From positions 1-20,175 of IMG/VR virus record IMGVR_UViG_3300027741_000328: a stretch of 20,175 nucleotides of DNA. One strand, written 5' to 3'. The notes beneath the pieces are model-generated. The model made no database searches. It had not been told where the DNA came from and saw only the letters and a program-made list of their open reading frames with translations. A program made the translations under genes and the position numbers. How positions within the stretch are numbered: the first letter of the stretch is position 1; each line of letters begins with the position of its first letter. Positions 3,907-19,503 of this stretch are shown in pieces. The DNA comes from a virus.

Positions 3907-5115
3907 TTAACGAAATACTGCCGCATAAACATTTGCAGAATCAATATATGCGGGAGTAAGACTATAAGTTTCCAAAAGGCAATTGCTTACGGCTCTTGCC
4001 TCGCCCGTATTACACCATCCACTATTTAATACACTTGCTGCGCCAGCACCTTTTGAAACACTAGCAACTACAGAATAATTAGTATCAACTAAGTTTGTTG
4101 TAAAATTTATTGCATAATTTCCTGTGCTTGTTTTTGTTATTGATGATACATTGCCCGAGCCGCGAATGGTGGATGGGGACGCGGTTGTTCCATTAAAATT
4201 TACCCAAGCACGACAACCATATGCATTTACAGCAGAACCATAGCCAGAATTAAATAAAAAATTCCCGCTTATGTCAAAACGCCCCCGTTCTGCGTTGTTT
4301 GTTCTAAAACTTAATGGGTGATTGCTATATGAGCCAACAATTGAGATGCTGTTTGTATTATCTGCTGTTATTTGCGTTTTAACAGTACCGTTTTGCACAT
4401 ACATCTGTACATCGCCGCCAGCAGCTTGGAAGTTTGCTAGCAAAGGAGCGCCGCTAGATGCCGTGCTTTGCACATCCAATTTGTAGCCGGGCGAAGTAGT
4501 ACCAATCCCCACATTTTGGCTTGTGTCTACGGTGACCGCAGTAGTTGTGCCATTGCTTTGCAAAGTCAACGAACTAGCACTTTTAACAATTGGCGTAGTG
4601 ACAGACGTTGTGCCGCTTAGTGTGGTAAACGTGCCTGCGGCTGCTGCCGTTCCACCGATAGCTGGCGGCGAAGCAAGGTAAGTGCTAAAGCCTGTTCCGC
4701 TTACGGTGCTAGATGCCGACAATGTAGTAAATGAACCCGCTGCCGCAGCCGTGCCTCCGATGGCTGGCGGGCTTGCCAAATAGGTGCTAAAACCTGTACC
4801 CGATACCGTGCTAGACGCGCTTAATGTGGTAAACGCGCCAGTTCCAGCCGTTGTCGCGCCGATATTTACGCCATCCAATGTGGTAGATGTTGCGCCTAGC
4901 GCGATGGATGTTGAGCCAACAGTTACGCTTGAGTTTGTCAGTTTTGCGTTAGCAATTGACCCCGCAAGCATCGTATTGGTGACCGTTCCCGAGTCGCCGG
5001 TGGTGACCATTGTTCCCGTTGTGGCAGGCACAGCAATGTCAAATGTGGACGCGGTATTAGGGCCATTCAGATTAACCTGGCCGCCGAGCGTTGCTTGAAA
5101 GACTAATGAACCCAT
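3907..5115 (-). CDS. Tail fibre protein with tandem repeat
   Basis: 402 aa, rich in Ser, Thr, Gly and Ala. The N-terminal 180 residues are low-complexity fibre-type sequence that includes NSSVTVGSTSIALGAT (62-77), a motif shared with the neighbouring 654-aa protein. A perfect tandem repeat covers residues 95-127 and 129-161. A NVGIGTTSPGYKLDVQ segment (201-216) is typical of phage tail fibres and marks the transition to a likely receptor-facing C-terminal part (about 220-402), which ends in SANVYAAVFR. AGGAG lies seven bases before ATG 5115. No enzymatic tailspike or intramolecular chaperone motif is recognised. Receptor binding is inferred from composition and position. Confidence 0.8.
   Translation of the reverse strand: MGSLVFQATLGGQVNLNGPNTASTFDIAVPATTGTMVTTGDSGTVTNTMLAGSIANAKLTNSSVTVGSTSIALGATSTTLDGVNIGATTAGTGAFTTLSASSTVSGTGFSTYLASPPAIGGTAAAAGSFTTLSASSTVSGTGFSTYLASPPAIGGTAAAAGTFTTLSGTTSVTTPIVKSASSLTLQSNGTTTAVTVDTSQNVGIGTTSPGYKLDVQSTASSGAPLLANFQAAGGDVQMYVQNGTVKTQITADNTNSISIVGSYSNHPLSFRTNNAERGRFDISGNFLFNSGYGSAVNAYGCRAWVNFNGTTASPSTIRGSGNVSSITKTSTGNYAINFTTNLVDTNYSVVASVSKGAGAASVLNSGWCNTGEARAVSNCLLETYSLTPAYIDSANVYAAVFR
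4630..4833 (-). repeat. Tandem 34-codon repeat in tail fibre, synonymously diverged
   Basis: Two adjacent 102-base units (4732-4833 and 4630-4731) encode the same 33 residues (FTTLSASSTVSGTGFS..., ending AIGGTAAAAG) followed by Ser or Thr. Comparing codon by codon, 21 of the 33 identical residues use different codons, including three Ser sites that switch between AGC and TCG. The units are therefore protein repeats but poor DNA repeats. Confidence 0.93.
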
Positions 5116-12659: not shown

Positions 12660-13931
12660 TTAGCCCATCCAATTCTGTGGTTGCAAATAGGTCGATTTGG
12701 ACACTCGCTTACGCGGCTCATTTACTACAAGCCCAAGCATACGGAATGCGTCCGCGCCATGCGAAAACTGGTCATGCAGCGGGTTTTTGCTGAACGCTTT
12801 AGTGTCGGGGTCAACCTCGTAGCGGTAATGCCGCAAACATTGTAACCCATCGTAGCAGTTATCCCTGTCAAACCAGCAATTTCTAAATAGGGTACGCGCC
12901 GCGTTAATACTGTCCACAATCGGGGTGCGCGGGATGATTTTGGTCTTATATCCTGCGCTTCTGACAATTTGGTCAATGCTCCGACCGGCGGCGGCCAACG
13001 TTTTATTCTCAGCGTCGTGCGGCAACCAGAGGGTGTCGTAGACATAGCCGTAGGTTTGCATCTTGGCCAAGTAGTCGGATATGGTCTTTTGATTGTCCTC
13101 GTGGTAGCGGATGAGCCTAGTTTCCATACCAATAAACTGCACAAACCATATCGCAGTCGCATCTGACCAGCCCAAGTCGAACACGGCGTGAACCGGCTTC
13201 ATCGGGTCATAGCCCACCTTGGTGATGCGGCCATCCAATTCAGCCATCTGCATCTCGCGGGCAAAGATAGCCCCGTCGACGGTTTGGCGGCATATGCCTT
13301 CCCATACGGTGTTATATGCCTCTACGTCGCGCATTCTGAGCGCGTCTTTCTCTAGCATCAACGTCTCAGGAAACCAGGGATTGTCCGACCAGTTAATCTT
13401 TTGGACGACGGAGTTCTCAGGCGGGTGCAGCACAAACCGCTGATAAGTCTCGTCCGTCTCCAACTCAGGATTAAACGTAACCCATATCTCGCTGCCTTCC
13501 TTGCGAATGGTTGGAATCAGGATGTTCCACGATAGGCGGCTGGTGGTCTGCGCCTCTTCTACCCAGCAAATATCCACGCCCTCGTAGGATTTGACGTTAG
13601 CGACGTTGTTCTTGAGGCCAACAAAACTGAATTCAGTCCCGTTCTTTCCCCGAATGCTGGCCTGGGTGATTTCGTAAAAGCCCTCTAGCCCTAAGTCGAT
13701 GATTTGGTCGCACAGCAGTTTGTGGACGGAATCTTTGATAGAAGTCTGAAACTCACGGGCGCAAAGGATACGCAAACTGCGTTGTGCGCCTTTTATGAGC
13801 AATGCCCGAGCCACGCCCCAAGACTTAGCCCCACCGCGCCCACCGTACAAGATTCGGTAGCGGCTTTTCTCAGGCTGGAACAGGCACTCCAGCTTTACGG
13901 GGAATTGCGCCTTACTTAGATTCGGCTGCAT
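12660..13931 (-). CDS. terL: Terminase large subunit
   Basis: 423 aa. The ATPase half has Walker A GGRGGAKSW (30-38), Walker B VDICWVEEA (119-127) and the coupling motif TFNP (152-155). The nuclease half has an RNase H-type pattern: VFDLGWSDATAIWF (250-263, Asp252), WLPHDAENK (302-310) and HDQFSHGADAFRML (386-399), which supply the likely metal-binding acidic residues. The order and the GGRGGAKS form fit the PBSX-type Terminase_3 group. It drives DNA into the procapsid and cuts concatemers. The start overlaps the terS-like gene by 20 bases and its end abuts portal. Length and motifs are complete. Confidence 0.96.
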   Translation of the reverse strand: MQPNLSKAQFPVKLECLFQPEKSRYRILYGGRGGAKSWGVARALLIKGAQRSLRILCAREFQTSIKDSVHKLLCDQIIDLGLEGFYEITQASIRGKNGTEFSFVGLKNNVANVKSYEGVDICWVEEAQTTSRLSWNILIPTIRKEGSEIWVTFNPELETDETYQRFVLHPPENSVVQKINWSDNPWFPETLMLEKDALRMRDVEAYNTVWEGICRQTVDGAIFAREMQMAELDGRITKVGYDPMKPVHAVFDLGWSDATAIWFVQFIGMETRLIRYHEDNQKTISDYLAKMQTYGYVYDTLWLPHDAENKTLAAAGRSIDQIVRSAGYKTKIIPRTPIVDSINAARTLFRNCWFDRDNCYDGLQCLRHYRYEVDPDTKAFSKNPLHDQFSHGADAFRMLGLVVNEPRKRVSKSTYLQPQNWMG

Positions 13932-14259
13932 TCGGCGCTACAAAGCTGACCTGGATGCCTTCAATGGCCGACCCATCAGGATTAGCCAGCTTGGTTGTAT
14001 TTGTCTCGCCCCAGGCCATTTGTGCTTTTGTCCACCATATCAGCGCCGTAGTGTCGCCCCCTTGGGCTTTGTTGAACAGCGTCCGAGCAATCGACGCGCT
14101 GGCCGTAGCCTTACCTAACGCCAGTTCAGTCTCGTAATATTTGCGCAACGTCTTATCGCTTATGCCTAAAAGTGCGCCTATTTGGTCGTGCGGCAATCCG
14201 AGCCCCGCAGCTTGTTGGGCTTGCGCTTTTGTCTTGTCGGTTGGCTCGTGAGGTAGCAT
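13912..14259 (-). CDS. terS: Terminase small subunit (putative)
   Basis: 115 aa. The N-terminal half reads as a helix-turn-helix: AQQAAGLGLPHDQIGALLGI followed by SDKTLRKYYETEL (about 15-46). The next helices (ASASIARTLFNKAQ, TALIWWTKAQMAW) would form the oligomerisation part. The pattern of a DNA-binding HTH followed by TLxxxYxxEL is common in small terminases, and the gene lies immediately upstream of terL, overlapping it by 20 bases. It would recognise the packaging site and recruit TerL. ATG 14259 has only a weak ribosome site. The pac or cos site cannot be identified by eye. Confidence 0.85.
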   Translation of the reverse strand: MLPHEPTDKTKAQAQQAAGLGLPHDQIGALLGISDKTLRKYYETELALGKATASASIARTLFNKAQGGDTTALIWWTKAQMAWGETNTTKLANPDGSAIEGIQVSFVAPNAAESK

Positions 14260-14290
14260 CTTTTTATTAGCGGAAAGTGTTGACTAAATT

Positions 14291-14998
14291 TTAAGCAATT
14301 TCTGCGGCTTCTGTCAATATGGAGCGTGTGGGTCGGTGATGCACCGCCGCTGTGTCGAGGGAATCGACCATCGCCTGCTTCACACGCTTAGGATAAGGCT
14401 TTGCTAATTTTGCTACTTGATTTCTCATCTCATCATCAAGTGGCATCAAATATCTGTGTTTTCCAATTGTTTTAACAATCTTACATTCACTTGGCTTCAA
14501 TGTCTTTCGTTGTTGCCCTTGCTGAATATTCCATCCTTTTTCGCTTATTTGGCGAGAATGAAGTCTTTTCCCATTATGCCAATATTCAATGCCTGGTGCT
14601 GTATCACCGCAATAAATCCAGTTACCAGCCTGATATACACCACCATGATGCCCGTATTGTGGGTCAGCAAATGAAACAATTAGTCTTAAATTAGGACTGT
14701 TTTTCTTTAAAAACATTAAAGCAAACTTAACTATTCTGCTTACTGTGCTTTTGTGGCTCGTCAAAGCAATACGAGTCAACTCGCATCCTTCATCTTGTTT
14801 TAACCCGTATGGTTTCATCAAATTTGATGATGCGCCCCTACTAAAAATGACTACACCAATAAACTTTCCGTCTTCCCATGCGCCTATCTTAACTAGTGGT
14901 GGTACGGGAATTGATTTGCTGTAATGCCATGTCGTGCAAGCATACTTAGCCGCGTCATGGCTTGCCCAATCAATTTTCAAGTCAGGTTTGTCTTGCAT
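14291..14998 (-). CDS. mom: Mom-like DNA adenine hypermodification protein
   Basis: 235 aa. It resembles phage Mu Mom, an acetyltransferase-fold enzyme that converts adenine in DNA to a carbamoylmethyl form and so blocks many restriction enzymes. The recognisable Mom-family pattern is WHYSKSIPVPP (24-34), KIGAWEDGKFIGVVIFSRGA (37-56), GCELTRIAL (71-79), then VSRIV and LRLIVSFADPQYGHHGGVYQ (104-123) with AGNWIYCG, and GKHRYLMPLD (179-188). Mu Mom is 241 aa, so this looks complete. ATG 14998 lies inside the upstream ParB-like gene (17-base overlap). A TTG one codon earlier is a less likely start. The ribosome site is weak (GGTAAAG), so translation probably depends on coupling. The target sequence cannot be deduced here. 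Confidence 0.92.
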   Translation of the reverse strand: MQDKPDLKIDWASHDAAKYACTTWHYSKSIPVPPLVKIGAWEDGKFIGVVIFSRGASSNLMKPYGLKQDEGCELTRIALTSHKSTVSRIVKFALMFLKKNSPNLRLIVSFADPQYGHHGGVYQAGNWIYCGDTAPGIEYWHNGKRLHSRQISEKGWNIQQGQQRKTLKPSECKIVKTIGKHRYLMPLDDEMRNQVAKLAKPYPKRVKQAMVDSLDTAAVHHRPTRSILTEAAEIA

Positions 14999-15488
14999 CA
15001 AATTCTTTACCGCAATGAGGACAGACTATCCATTTTGGGTCCAATTCGTCTAATTTTCCTTGTTCTTCTTCTGTTGCGGGCTGAAAATCAGGCTCATCTA
15101 ATAATTTGCTAATTTCATCGTTGTTAAAGCCCAAAATATTTAAGGCAAATCCGTCTGCCAGCAACTCGTTTAGCTCAACGGTCAACAGGTCTGTGTCCCA
15201 TTCAGCATTCATTGCCAGCTTGTTGTCAGCAATGATGAGCGCCTTGCGCTGGGTGTCCGTCAGGTGCGCCAATTCAATAACCGGCACTTCCTTCATGCCT
15301 AGCTTACGCGCAGCCATTAACCGCCCGTGGCCTGCAATGATGCCCTGGTCGCCATCCACCAAGATTGGATTAGTCCAGCCAAATTCCTTAATGCTGGCCG
15401 CTATTTGCGCGACTTGAGCGTCGGAATGCTTGCGGCTATTGTTGACGTAAGGGATTAGCTTGTCAACGGCGACCTGGGTGATGTTCAC
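14982..15488 (-). CDS. ParB/Srx-fold nuclease-like protein with CPHC tail
   Basis: 168 aa. Residues 1-95 match the ParB N-terminal / sulfiredoxin fold: VDKLIPYVNNSRKHSDAQV, IKEFGWTNPILVDGD, GIIAGHGRLMAARKLG (49-64) and RKALIIADNKLAMNAEWD (81-98). In many phages this form precedes or is fused to a DNA methyltransferase; here the next gene is mom. The C-terminus ends WIVCPHCGKEFDARQT, a single CxxC knuckle (156-159) with no second pair. The start is GTG 15488, overlapping the upstream 34-aa gene as GTGA. A role in targeting or controlling DNA modification is inferred from neighbours; ParB-type domains can also be CTPases or nucleases. Confidence 0.88.
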   Translation of the reverse strand: MNITQVAVDKLIPYVNNSRKHSDAQVAQIAASIKEFGWTNPILVDGDQGIIAGHGRLMAARKLGMKEVPVIELAHLTDTQRKALIIADNKLAMNAEWDTDLLTVELNELLADGFALNILGFNNDEISKLLDEPDFQPATEEEQGKLDELDPKWIVCPHCGKEFDARQT

Positions 15489-15589
15489 TTTTTCTTTTTC
15501 TCTGCTTCGCGCTTAACCGAAAGGGCAATAGCTACCGCTTGCTTGAGCGGTTTGCCAGCCTTAATCTCGGCCTTGATGTTCTCACTCAT
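15485..15589 (-). CDS. 34-aa lysine-rich miniprotein
   Basis: A complete small gene, ATG 15589 to TGA 15485. It encodes MSENIKAEIKAGKPLKQAVA, then IALSVKREAE and a run of four lysines. The start overlaps the upstream stop by eight bases (ATGAGTGA), and the end overlaps the ParB-like start as GTGA. It therefore exactly fills what would otherwise be a hole in a tightly packed operon. The GKPxKQAVAIALS motif recurs in short phage proteins and in DUF6496-like ends, to my recollection. It is strongly basic and probably helical; nucleic-acid binding is a guess. Confidence 0.78.
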   Translation of the reverse strand: MSENIKAEIKAGKPLKQAVAIALSVKREAEKKKK

Positions 15590-15752
15590 AGCTTTGGGTG
15601 TCGGGGATTTCTTTAGGGGCATCTTGCTTCTCCAGTTCGGTTAGCGTCCATTGGCATTGTTGCAGCGCACCATTTACTTGGTGTATCTGCGCTTCTAGTT
15701 CGCGGCCTTTAGCCATGAGGTCTTGGATTCTTGCGGTGATTAGGTCTTTCAT
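15582..15752 (-). CDS. 56-aa helical protein, unknown function
   Basis: 56 aa, beginning MKDLITARIQDLMAKGRELE, with QIHQVNGALQQCQWTLTELE and an end KEIPDTQSYE. A heptad-like pattern over residues 4-42 suggests one coiled-coil helix. The start ATG 15752 was chosen because it overlaps the upstream stop as ATGA, with purine-rich GAGAAAG before it. An in-frame longer form from 15869 would put an Arg-rich non-protein-like stretch inside the neighbour. Similar short coils with a QVNGALQQCQ motif are common in phages. Function unknown. Confidence 0.75.
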   Translation of the reverse strand: MKDLITARIQDLMAKGRELEAQIHQVNGALQQCQWTLTELEKQDAPKEIPDTQSYE

Positions 15753-18708: not shown

Positions 18709-19503
18709 TCAGTCCCCACAAAAGCAGGAAATTGCTTCTTCTATTGGGTCAAACATATCGCGTTGCTCTTTGGAAAACTTCAGCATCTGTGCATAGGATG
18801 GACGGTCTTTGCTAAAAGTGCCACCAATCAACGCCTCTTGTTTTGCCCACCAAACGGCTCGGTCTGGCTTATCAAACACCATTGATGAAATTTGATGCAT
18901 GGGCTTCATAAAGCACAAATCACAATTTCCCAACGCTGTTACGCCATCAGCAAAATTTAAACGCAAATCAAAATTATTGTTCTTCCAAAAATCTTGAACC
19001 GTTGCTTGCGTCACATCGCTGTTTGCCAATGGCATCAACTTAGTGCCTCGCATTTTTGTAACACGCTTAGGCTCATCTGCCCTAATGCCGACCATTGTCT
19101 CAAACTCATCAATACCCAAACTTTTAAAATACCGCTCAATGGGCAAAATTTTTAGTTCTGACGTGCAAAATCTCATCACGCTGTTAGGCAAAAAACTGCG
19201 TTTTTTTATCAAGTCAGCAAATGGTTGTCCATCACGATTGGCGGCTTCAAAGTTCACCACCTTGAATTTGTCTCCATCTGGCGTGTATTCTAGCCAAGTG
19301 ATAGGCACATTCCAATGTTCTGAGCAATCCTGCACAAACCGCAGCGTGGCTTCATCTTCTTTGCCGGTGTTGGCAAAACAGACAGTCGCCTCGGCTGGCA
19401 ACCCGCCATTGCTTTGCAGTACGCGCCAAAGCATATAAGCGCTAGTACGCCCGCCGCTAAAGCTGATGCAAGTCGGCTCGGTTATCTTGAATGGGTCAAA
19501 CAT
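18709..19503 (-). CDS. PAPS reductase-fold protein
   Basis: 264 aa. The PP-loop SFSGGRTSAYML (14-25) binds adenine nucleotides in the PAPS reductase / ATP pyrophosphatase fold. FANTGKEDEATLRFV (43-57) is the usual second motif, and RFCTSELKILPIERY (111-125) resembles the Cys/Lys motif of this family. Cys194xxCys197 and Cys260xCys262, with Cys113, could bind an iron-sulfur cluster. It is complete in length. Phage proteins of this type are common and mostly unassigned; relatives include sulfate-assimilation reductases and the DndC protein of DNA phosphorothioation. A role in nucleotide or DNA chemistry is inference. Start ATG 19503 overlaps the upstream gene by eight bases. Confidence 0.87.
   Translation of the reverse strand: MFDPFKITEPTCISFSGGRTSAYMLWRVLQSNGGLPAEATVCFANTGKEDEATLRFVQDCSEHWNVPITWLEYTPDGDKFKVVNFEAANRDGQPFADLIKKRSFLPNSVMRFCTSELKILPIERYFKSLGIDEFETMVGIRADEPKRVTKMRGTKLMPLANSDVTQATVQDFWKNNNFDLRLNFADGVTALGNCDLCFMKPMHQISSMVFDKPDRAVWWAKQEALIGGTFSKDRPSYAQMLKFSKEQRDMFDPIEEAISCFCGD

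Follow-up and report, generated by a model that had tools for sequence, protein, structure and literature searches.

A ParB-like gene overlapping mom resembles part of a swappable DNA-armour module, not the com-mom switch of phage Mu

DNA-modifying genes situated between ParB and TerL have been described as the ParB-TlS locus, in which ParB may also be fused to a methyltransferase and has been proposed to direct genome modification during packaging (Iyer et al. 2013, to the extent summarised in PMC6536676). ParBc domains are also frequent near CmoX, the function of ParB there being stated as unknown (PMC12783734). It is known as well that phage genomes which are otherwise constant can differ in their methyltransferase genes, and a published figure shows ParB and terminase at a variable region (PMC7468147). 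Another closely comparable system is the com-mom pair of Mu, where mom starts inside com. Com has been described as a CCCC zinc finger (PMC6483171).

The locus described here is of an already known type, with the same order of ParB-like gene, modifier and terminase as in the ParB-TlS locus as summarised in PMC6536676. Here, however, the modifier is Mom, ParB bears an invariant CPxC tail, mom starts within the ParB gene, and the tail is exchanged together with the modifier. Four features are apparently new: the tail is invariant, it goes with enzymes encoded in trans, mom begins inside the upstream gene, and the boundaries of the exchange lie within parB. Part of this may be contained in Iyer et al. 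2013. The locus shares with Mu com-mom a homologous Mom enzyme and an upstream gene that overlaps mom and encodes a CxxC, but it has no Com homologue, the mom start is not buried by structure, a ParB domain with a single CPxC stands in the place of Com's 62-aa zinc finger, and the partner of the tailed ParB is not limited to mom. The pair thus looks like a swappable DNA-armour module and not like a copy of the Mu switch.

The window, i.e. the whole stretch of DNA analysed, is a single virus record of 20,175 bases, in which the ParB, mom, TerS and TerL genes all lie on the minus strand. The features referred to below are the following:

12660-13931, minus strand: terminase large subunit neighbour (Pfam Terminase_3, E 6.6e-35)
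13912-14259, minus strand: terminase small subunit-like neighbour (PHROG 309, E 2e-12)
14291-14998, minus strand: mom, encoding a GNAT-fold adenine acyltransferase-like protein of 235 aa (matches to Pfam PF25680, PHROG 1384 and 8bv8)
14299-15152, minus strand: exchanged segment, comprising the C-terminal third of ParB with the CPxC tail and essentially all of mom (homology breaks)
14982-14998, minus strand: 17-nt overlap of ParB and mom, the mom ATG lying within the Asp-Ala codons of ParB
14982-15488, minus strand: ParB/Srx-fold gene with a GTG start, encoding 168 aa with a ParB N-domain and a CPxC tail (PF02195, PHROG 620, structure model)
15003-15011, minus strand: Gly-Lys-Glu codons (GGTAAAGAA), doubling as the Shine-Dalgarno-like region of mom (-3.0 kcal/mol)
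15012-15023, minus strand: codons of CPHC, residues 156-159, in a predicted beta-hairpin with strands 153-155 and 162-164 (sequence and AF2 model)
15153-15488, minus strand: shared ParB core, codons 1-112 (blastn against contigs L097 and L101; Pfam of both loci)

From 15488 to 12660 the gene order is ParB, mom, TerS and TerL, corresponding to ParB, modifier and terminase. The C-terminal sequence of the ParB-like protein is WIVCPHCGKEFDARQT, and mom starts with the ATG at 14998, an in-frame TTG being present also at 15001. The initial annotation had placed the start of mom inside the end of a ParB/Srx-fold gene with a CPHC knuckle at its C-terminus, and both statements agree with the gene positions found. 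It had also put the CxxC exactly at the mom start; the two are adjacent but do not coincide, the last CPHC codon ending 13 nt upstream of the ATG. The 17-nt overlap is unexceptional in this genome, because TerS and TerL share 20 nt and overlaps of 4-23 nt occur at several further junctions (starts assigned mechanically). The ParB start in turn shares a GTGA with the end of an ORF of 45 aa (34 aa from an inner ATG) at 15485-15622, and ParB itself may thus be coupled to an upstream gene. The window also encodes a phosphoadenosine phosphosulfate reductase-like protein at 18709-19503 (PHROG 424, E 5e-47; weak similarity to DndC, E 0.09). A tRNA scan of the window found none.

The identity of Mom was supported by Pfam PF25680 (E 4.7e-44, 150.9 bits, gathering cut-off 27.1) and by the PHROG 1384 family 'Mom-like' (E 5e-58). 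A profile of 54 Mom relatives had Mu Mom, 8bv8, as its sole PDB sequence match (E 7e-19), and the window Mom family and Mu Mom have the core residues HYS, EL-R, SFAD and YQA-N in common. The AF2 model (pLDDT 89) superimposed on 8bv8 with Z 20.6 and an rmsd of 2.7 A over 184 aligned residues, far above the other GNATs at Z 12.8 and below; alignments for the structure models were built from fetched loci only. The adenines of the phage DNA are probably the target of Mom, which would attach a protective chemical group to them.

The ParB-like protein matched Pfam ParB_N PF02195 (E 4.8e-07) and, with the tail included in the match, PHROG 620 (E 6.4e-63). Its model (pLDDT 90) resembled Noc 7ng0 (Z 15.6) and ParB 6sdk (Z 15.5) over residues 1-138, nucleotide-bound structures being included among the matches. 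The N-domain fold is thus common to the chromosomal CTP-binding ParB/Noc proteins (Z about 15.5 over residues 1-138), but in the model the N-domain is followed by a short helical linker and a small beta-hairpin carrying the CPHC, and no HTH DNA-binding domain was recognised in the 168 residues modelled. The knuckle region had no structural neighbour among the matches listed, which were dominated by the N-domain. Only G37, G53, C156, P157 and C159 were invariant in 50 non-redundant ParBs, the CPxC thus forming three of the five invariant residues. Each ParB had a single CxxC, 22 of the 50 lacked any further cysteine, and all 108 CxxC tails surveyed read CPxC.

Conservation of the gene pair was examined in viral and bacterial genome contigs and isolated phages, with Mom clustered at 80% identity. 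In this survey of ParB-mom neighbours, which the initial annotation had proposed, a ParB was located within 1.5 kb upstream of mom in 70 of the 79 Mom clusters (less than 80% identical to each other), 69 of these 70 ParBs carried a CxxC tail, and mom began before the ParB stop in 62 of the 69 loci with an assigned start. The commonest offset of the mom start relative to the ParB stop was -17, followed by -14, -4 and -8. The tail exceeds chance expectation, since among other ORFs of the same loci only 22 of 1630 (1.3%) had a CxxC in their C-terminal 32 aa, and since it makes up three of the five invariant residues. Also a narrower first survey of viral loci had found a tailed ParB immediately upstream of mom in nearly all complete cases. 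The same pair is present in the isolated phages phiEf11, Appa, BarretLemon and Salinibacter B2_17, and altogether extends over phages and prophages of Firmicutes, Actinobacteria, Proteobacteria and Salinibacter, which bears out the notion of a compact, conserved unit. In other loci, too, the long ORFs that follow mom included TerL families. With the more distant Moms of Mu and Proteus PM87, ParB_N gave no match anywhere in the phage genomes, and Mom there evidently works without ParB. Single loci deviated in other ways: in L230 (1885-2992 and beyond) an apparent second mom-like gene lies about 600 nt downstream, and in L044 (77-779) mom is split over two ORFs by an internal stop codon.

The range of partners was surveyed from 162 ParB representatives at 80% core identity. 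The CPxC-tailed ParBs were followed by Mom in 82 cases, by a C5-cytosine methyltransferase in 13, by a TGT-like protein in two (called by similarity to a phiFN37 gene annotated as queuine tRNA-ribosyltransferase) and by TerL in one, and the other-tailed ParBs by an ABC-ATPase-GNAT protein in five, a TAGT glycosyltransferase in five and a divergent Mom in two; as the loci were fetched with Mom and ParB queries, these proportions are not population frequencies. The type of tail tracked the class of partner (97/97 versus 0/12), and the association held also in the loci fetched by ParB queries alone. A further 38 ParBs had long C-terminal extensions, which proved to be N6/N4 methyltransferases in most of those tested, and a CxxC after the core was found in none of these 38. 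The phage ParB-methyltransferase fusions of the PHROG 498 type thus share the ParB core, at up to 95-97% DNA identity, and the genomic slot before the terminase, but have the enzyme fused in cis and lack the CPxC tail (0/38), whereas here the tail goes with a separate enzyme. The earlier suggestion that such ParB domains partner DNA-modifying enzymes was therefore well founded, the partners being Mom, C5-methyltransferases, TGT-like proteins and fused N6/N4 methyltransferases.

Comparison with loci of the fused type located the boundaries of the exchangeable part. The window ParB was approximately 95% identical in DNA to viral contigs L097 and L101 from upstream of the gene through codon 112, the blastn match spanning reverse-complement positions 4405-5023 of the window, and in both contigs ParB runs on into N6/N4 methyltransferases (Pfam). 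Homology to both stopped at one base, window position 15153, and resumed at the mom stop, at 14299 with L097 and at 14282 with L101; the terminase genes were again 90-91% identical. Altogether 45 pairs with both flanks homologous were found, including 20 query loci, 15 subject loci and seven distinct left breakpoints. The left break fell at ParB codons 88-126, each time 5' of the CPxC codons; the right break preceded the partner stop by a median of 2 nt (at most 37 nt in the best pair per subject locus). The pattern was seen for Mom, and for the C5-methyltransferase in three pairs, while 672 Mom-Mom comparisons were contiguous across the region. Because the breaks lie inside ParB and at the partner stop, the tail and the enzyme are replaced together and the ParB core and terminase stay; in none of the 45 pairs were tail and partner exchanged apart. 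Judged from these alignments, the CPxC tail and mom are exchanged as a unit against the fused methyltransferase, the 45 pairs not being equated with independent events. In the ParB-core tree, based on few columns, the partner and tail labels changed many times, at least 5-6 of the changes being forced by well-supported branches. Within near-identical flanks the modifier slot is thus interchangeable between Mom or a C5-methyltransferase with a CPxC tail and a fused methyltransferase, and the boundaries show phages trading DNA protection chemistries at one fixed slot.

In our judgement the pair is probably a modification module of the ParB-terminase type, in which an accessory ParB is linked by its CPxC tail to a separate enzyme and the overlap provides translational coupling. 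In such a module Mom would modify the adenines of the phage DNA, and ParB, probably a factor that binds nucleotide and associates with DNA, would serve many different base-modifying enzymes as an accessory subunit. The C-terminus would be where ParB acts: either the core continues directly into an N6/N4 methyltransferase, or it ends in a zinc-knuckle-like CPxC tail that would connect it to a separate Mom, C5-methyltransferase or TGT-like enzyme. As the CPxC is present with separate enzymes and absent with fused ones, the tail appears to replace fusion as the connection, standing in for the covalent link through direct docking or zinc-mediated assembly. Tail and enzyme would together be a cassette that can be exchanged, with the conserved ParB core as its chassis. 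Translational coupling and stoichiometry would come from the gene overlap, with the Shine-Dalgarno written in the knuckle codons. Since no ORF fusing ParB to Mom was found in the survey of Mom loci, direct contact between the two proteins is suggested by the equivalence of their slot with that of the ParB-methyltransferase fusions. Docking of the enzyme on ParB, binding of zinc and nucleotide by ParB and an effect on the activity or targeting of Mom are what we infer from these patterns, and the term 'targeting unit' for base modification used in the initial annotation is plausible. Going further, we tentatively suggest that the CPxC tail might be a zinc-mediated connector for docking in trans, by which a nucleotide-switched ParB carries interchangeable base-modifying enzymes along the DNA near packaging, cassette swaps within parB then changing the DNA armour. 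Against the module reading count the Moms of Mu and PM87, which do without ParB, and the different tail of the divergent Mom-ParB pairs. A zinc site shared by ParB and Mom cysteines was rejected, the cysteines of Mom being too little conserved (C72 in 44/56, C21 in 50/56). The invariant CPxC, its restriction to trans-encoded enzymes and the boundaries within parB provide a concrete, mutable handle on the role of ParB.

An alternative is plain operon packing: ParB and Mom would have separate functions, the overlap would reflect phage compaction with translational coupling, and the tail would have an unrelated role, e.g. in self-association. In line with this, further genes of the window overlap by 4-23 nt, the ParB start has its GTGA overlap, and Mu and PM87 have a Mom but no ParB; but the pair is kept across very distant phages, the tail type follows the partner class (97/97 versus 0/12), and tail and partner were swapped jointly throughout the 45 pairs. 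We consider this explanation unlikely.

Quite improbable in our opinion is a combination of offence and defence, in which ParB would be a nuclease cutting unmodified host or rival DNA and Mom, or another modification, would protect the phage. ParB-like domains have published nicking or nuclease activity, among them that of the ParB-methylase Bce_0392, for which nicking was reported (PMC5512222), and G53, H54 and R56 are strongly conserved in the present ParBs. Nevertheless, a single ParB core serves modifications of differing specificity, which a fixed self/non-self nuclease would be unlikely to tolerate easily, and the closest structures are nucleotide-binding ParB/Noc proteins and not nucleases.

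The initial annotation had further compared the pair with com-mom and considered the ribosome site of mom weak. The anti-Shine-Dalgarno duplex energy of the window mom, -3.0 kcal/mol, is average against the family mean of -3.36 and not unusually weak; the mean at ParB starts was -3.32 and at pseudo-starts -1.91, and the Shine-Dalgarno of mom was often encoded by the codons immediately 3' of the knuckle. In 62 loci the mom start codon was more accessible than control positions (mean 0.54 versus 0.44, p 0.01) and local folding around it was weaker (p 0.002). The value for the window was 0.80 and that for the GTG start of Mu, by an identical calculation, 0.0007, so that the calculation gives no sign of a translation-inhibiting RNA structure of the com-mom kind. 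A switch like that of Com, in which the CPxC knuckle of ParB would bind the parB-mom mRNA and be required for opening the mom ribosome site, can hardly be credited despite the superficial resemblance of an overlap with a nearby CxxC and the similarly embedded mom start in Mu, since Com PF10122 was found neither in the window nor in three complete phages with the ParB-mom pair (phiEf11, Appa and BarretLemon) and the Mu control matched (E 1.2e-10), the mom start is accessible and its Shine-Dalgarno equals that of ParB itself, the identical tail type precedes partners other than mom, ParB has one CPxC and not CCCC, and overlap without CxxC (L271, L349, L449) and CxxC without overlap (L159, L208 and L220, with mom about 180-230 nt further downstream) both occur.

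The genes downstream of CPxC-tailed ParBs suggest an unbiased route for discovering new base-modifying enzymes. The C5-methyltransferase-like partners in L141 (4455-5543) and L161 (3488-4555) have an SPPC motif similar to that described for CmoX, a cytosine carboxymethyltransferase (PMC12783734); some of these partners may therefore not be simple methyltransferases. In L325 (2688-3932) no modifier separates a CPxC-tailed ParB from TerL, which follows it immediately and with an overlap. The ParBs overlapped by the divergent Mom-like genes of L349 (2979-3585) and L449 (2173-2860) have another kind of tail, which lacks the cysteines. In Pseudoalteromonas phage SL25 (L162, 3498-4574) an ABC-ATPase-GNAT protein, resembling the GNAT-ATPase systems for which acylation of DNA bases has been predicted, comes right after an other-tailed ParB. 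In Fusobacterium phage phiFN37 (L163, 80-883; L167, 2564-3849) a CPxC-tailed ParB overlaps by 4 nt the gene annotated as queuine tRNA-ribosyltransferase, the next gene is a queosine precursor transporter, and these genes are possibly a set for 7-deazaguanine modification of DNA. The same phage has another CPxC-tailed ParB a few kb off, before a short unknown gene.
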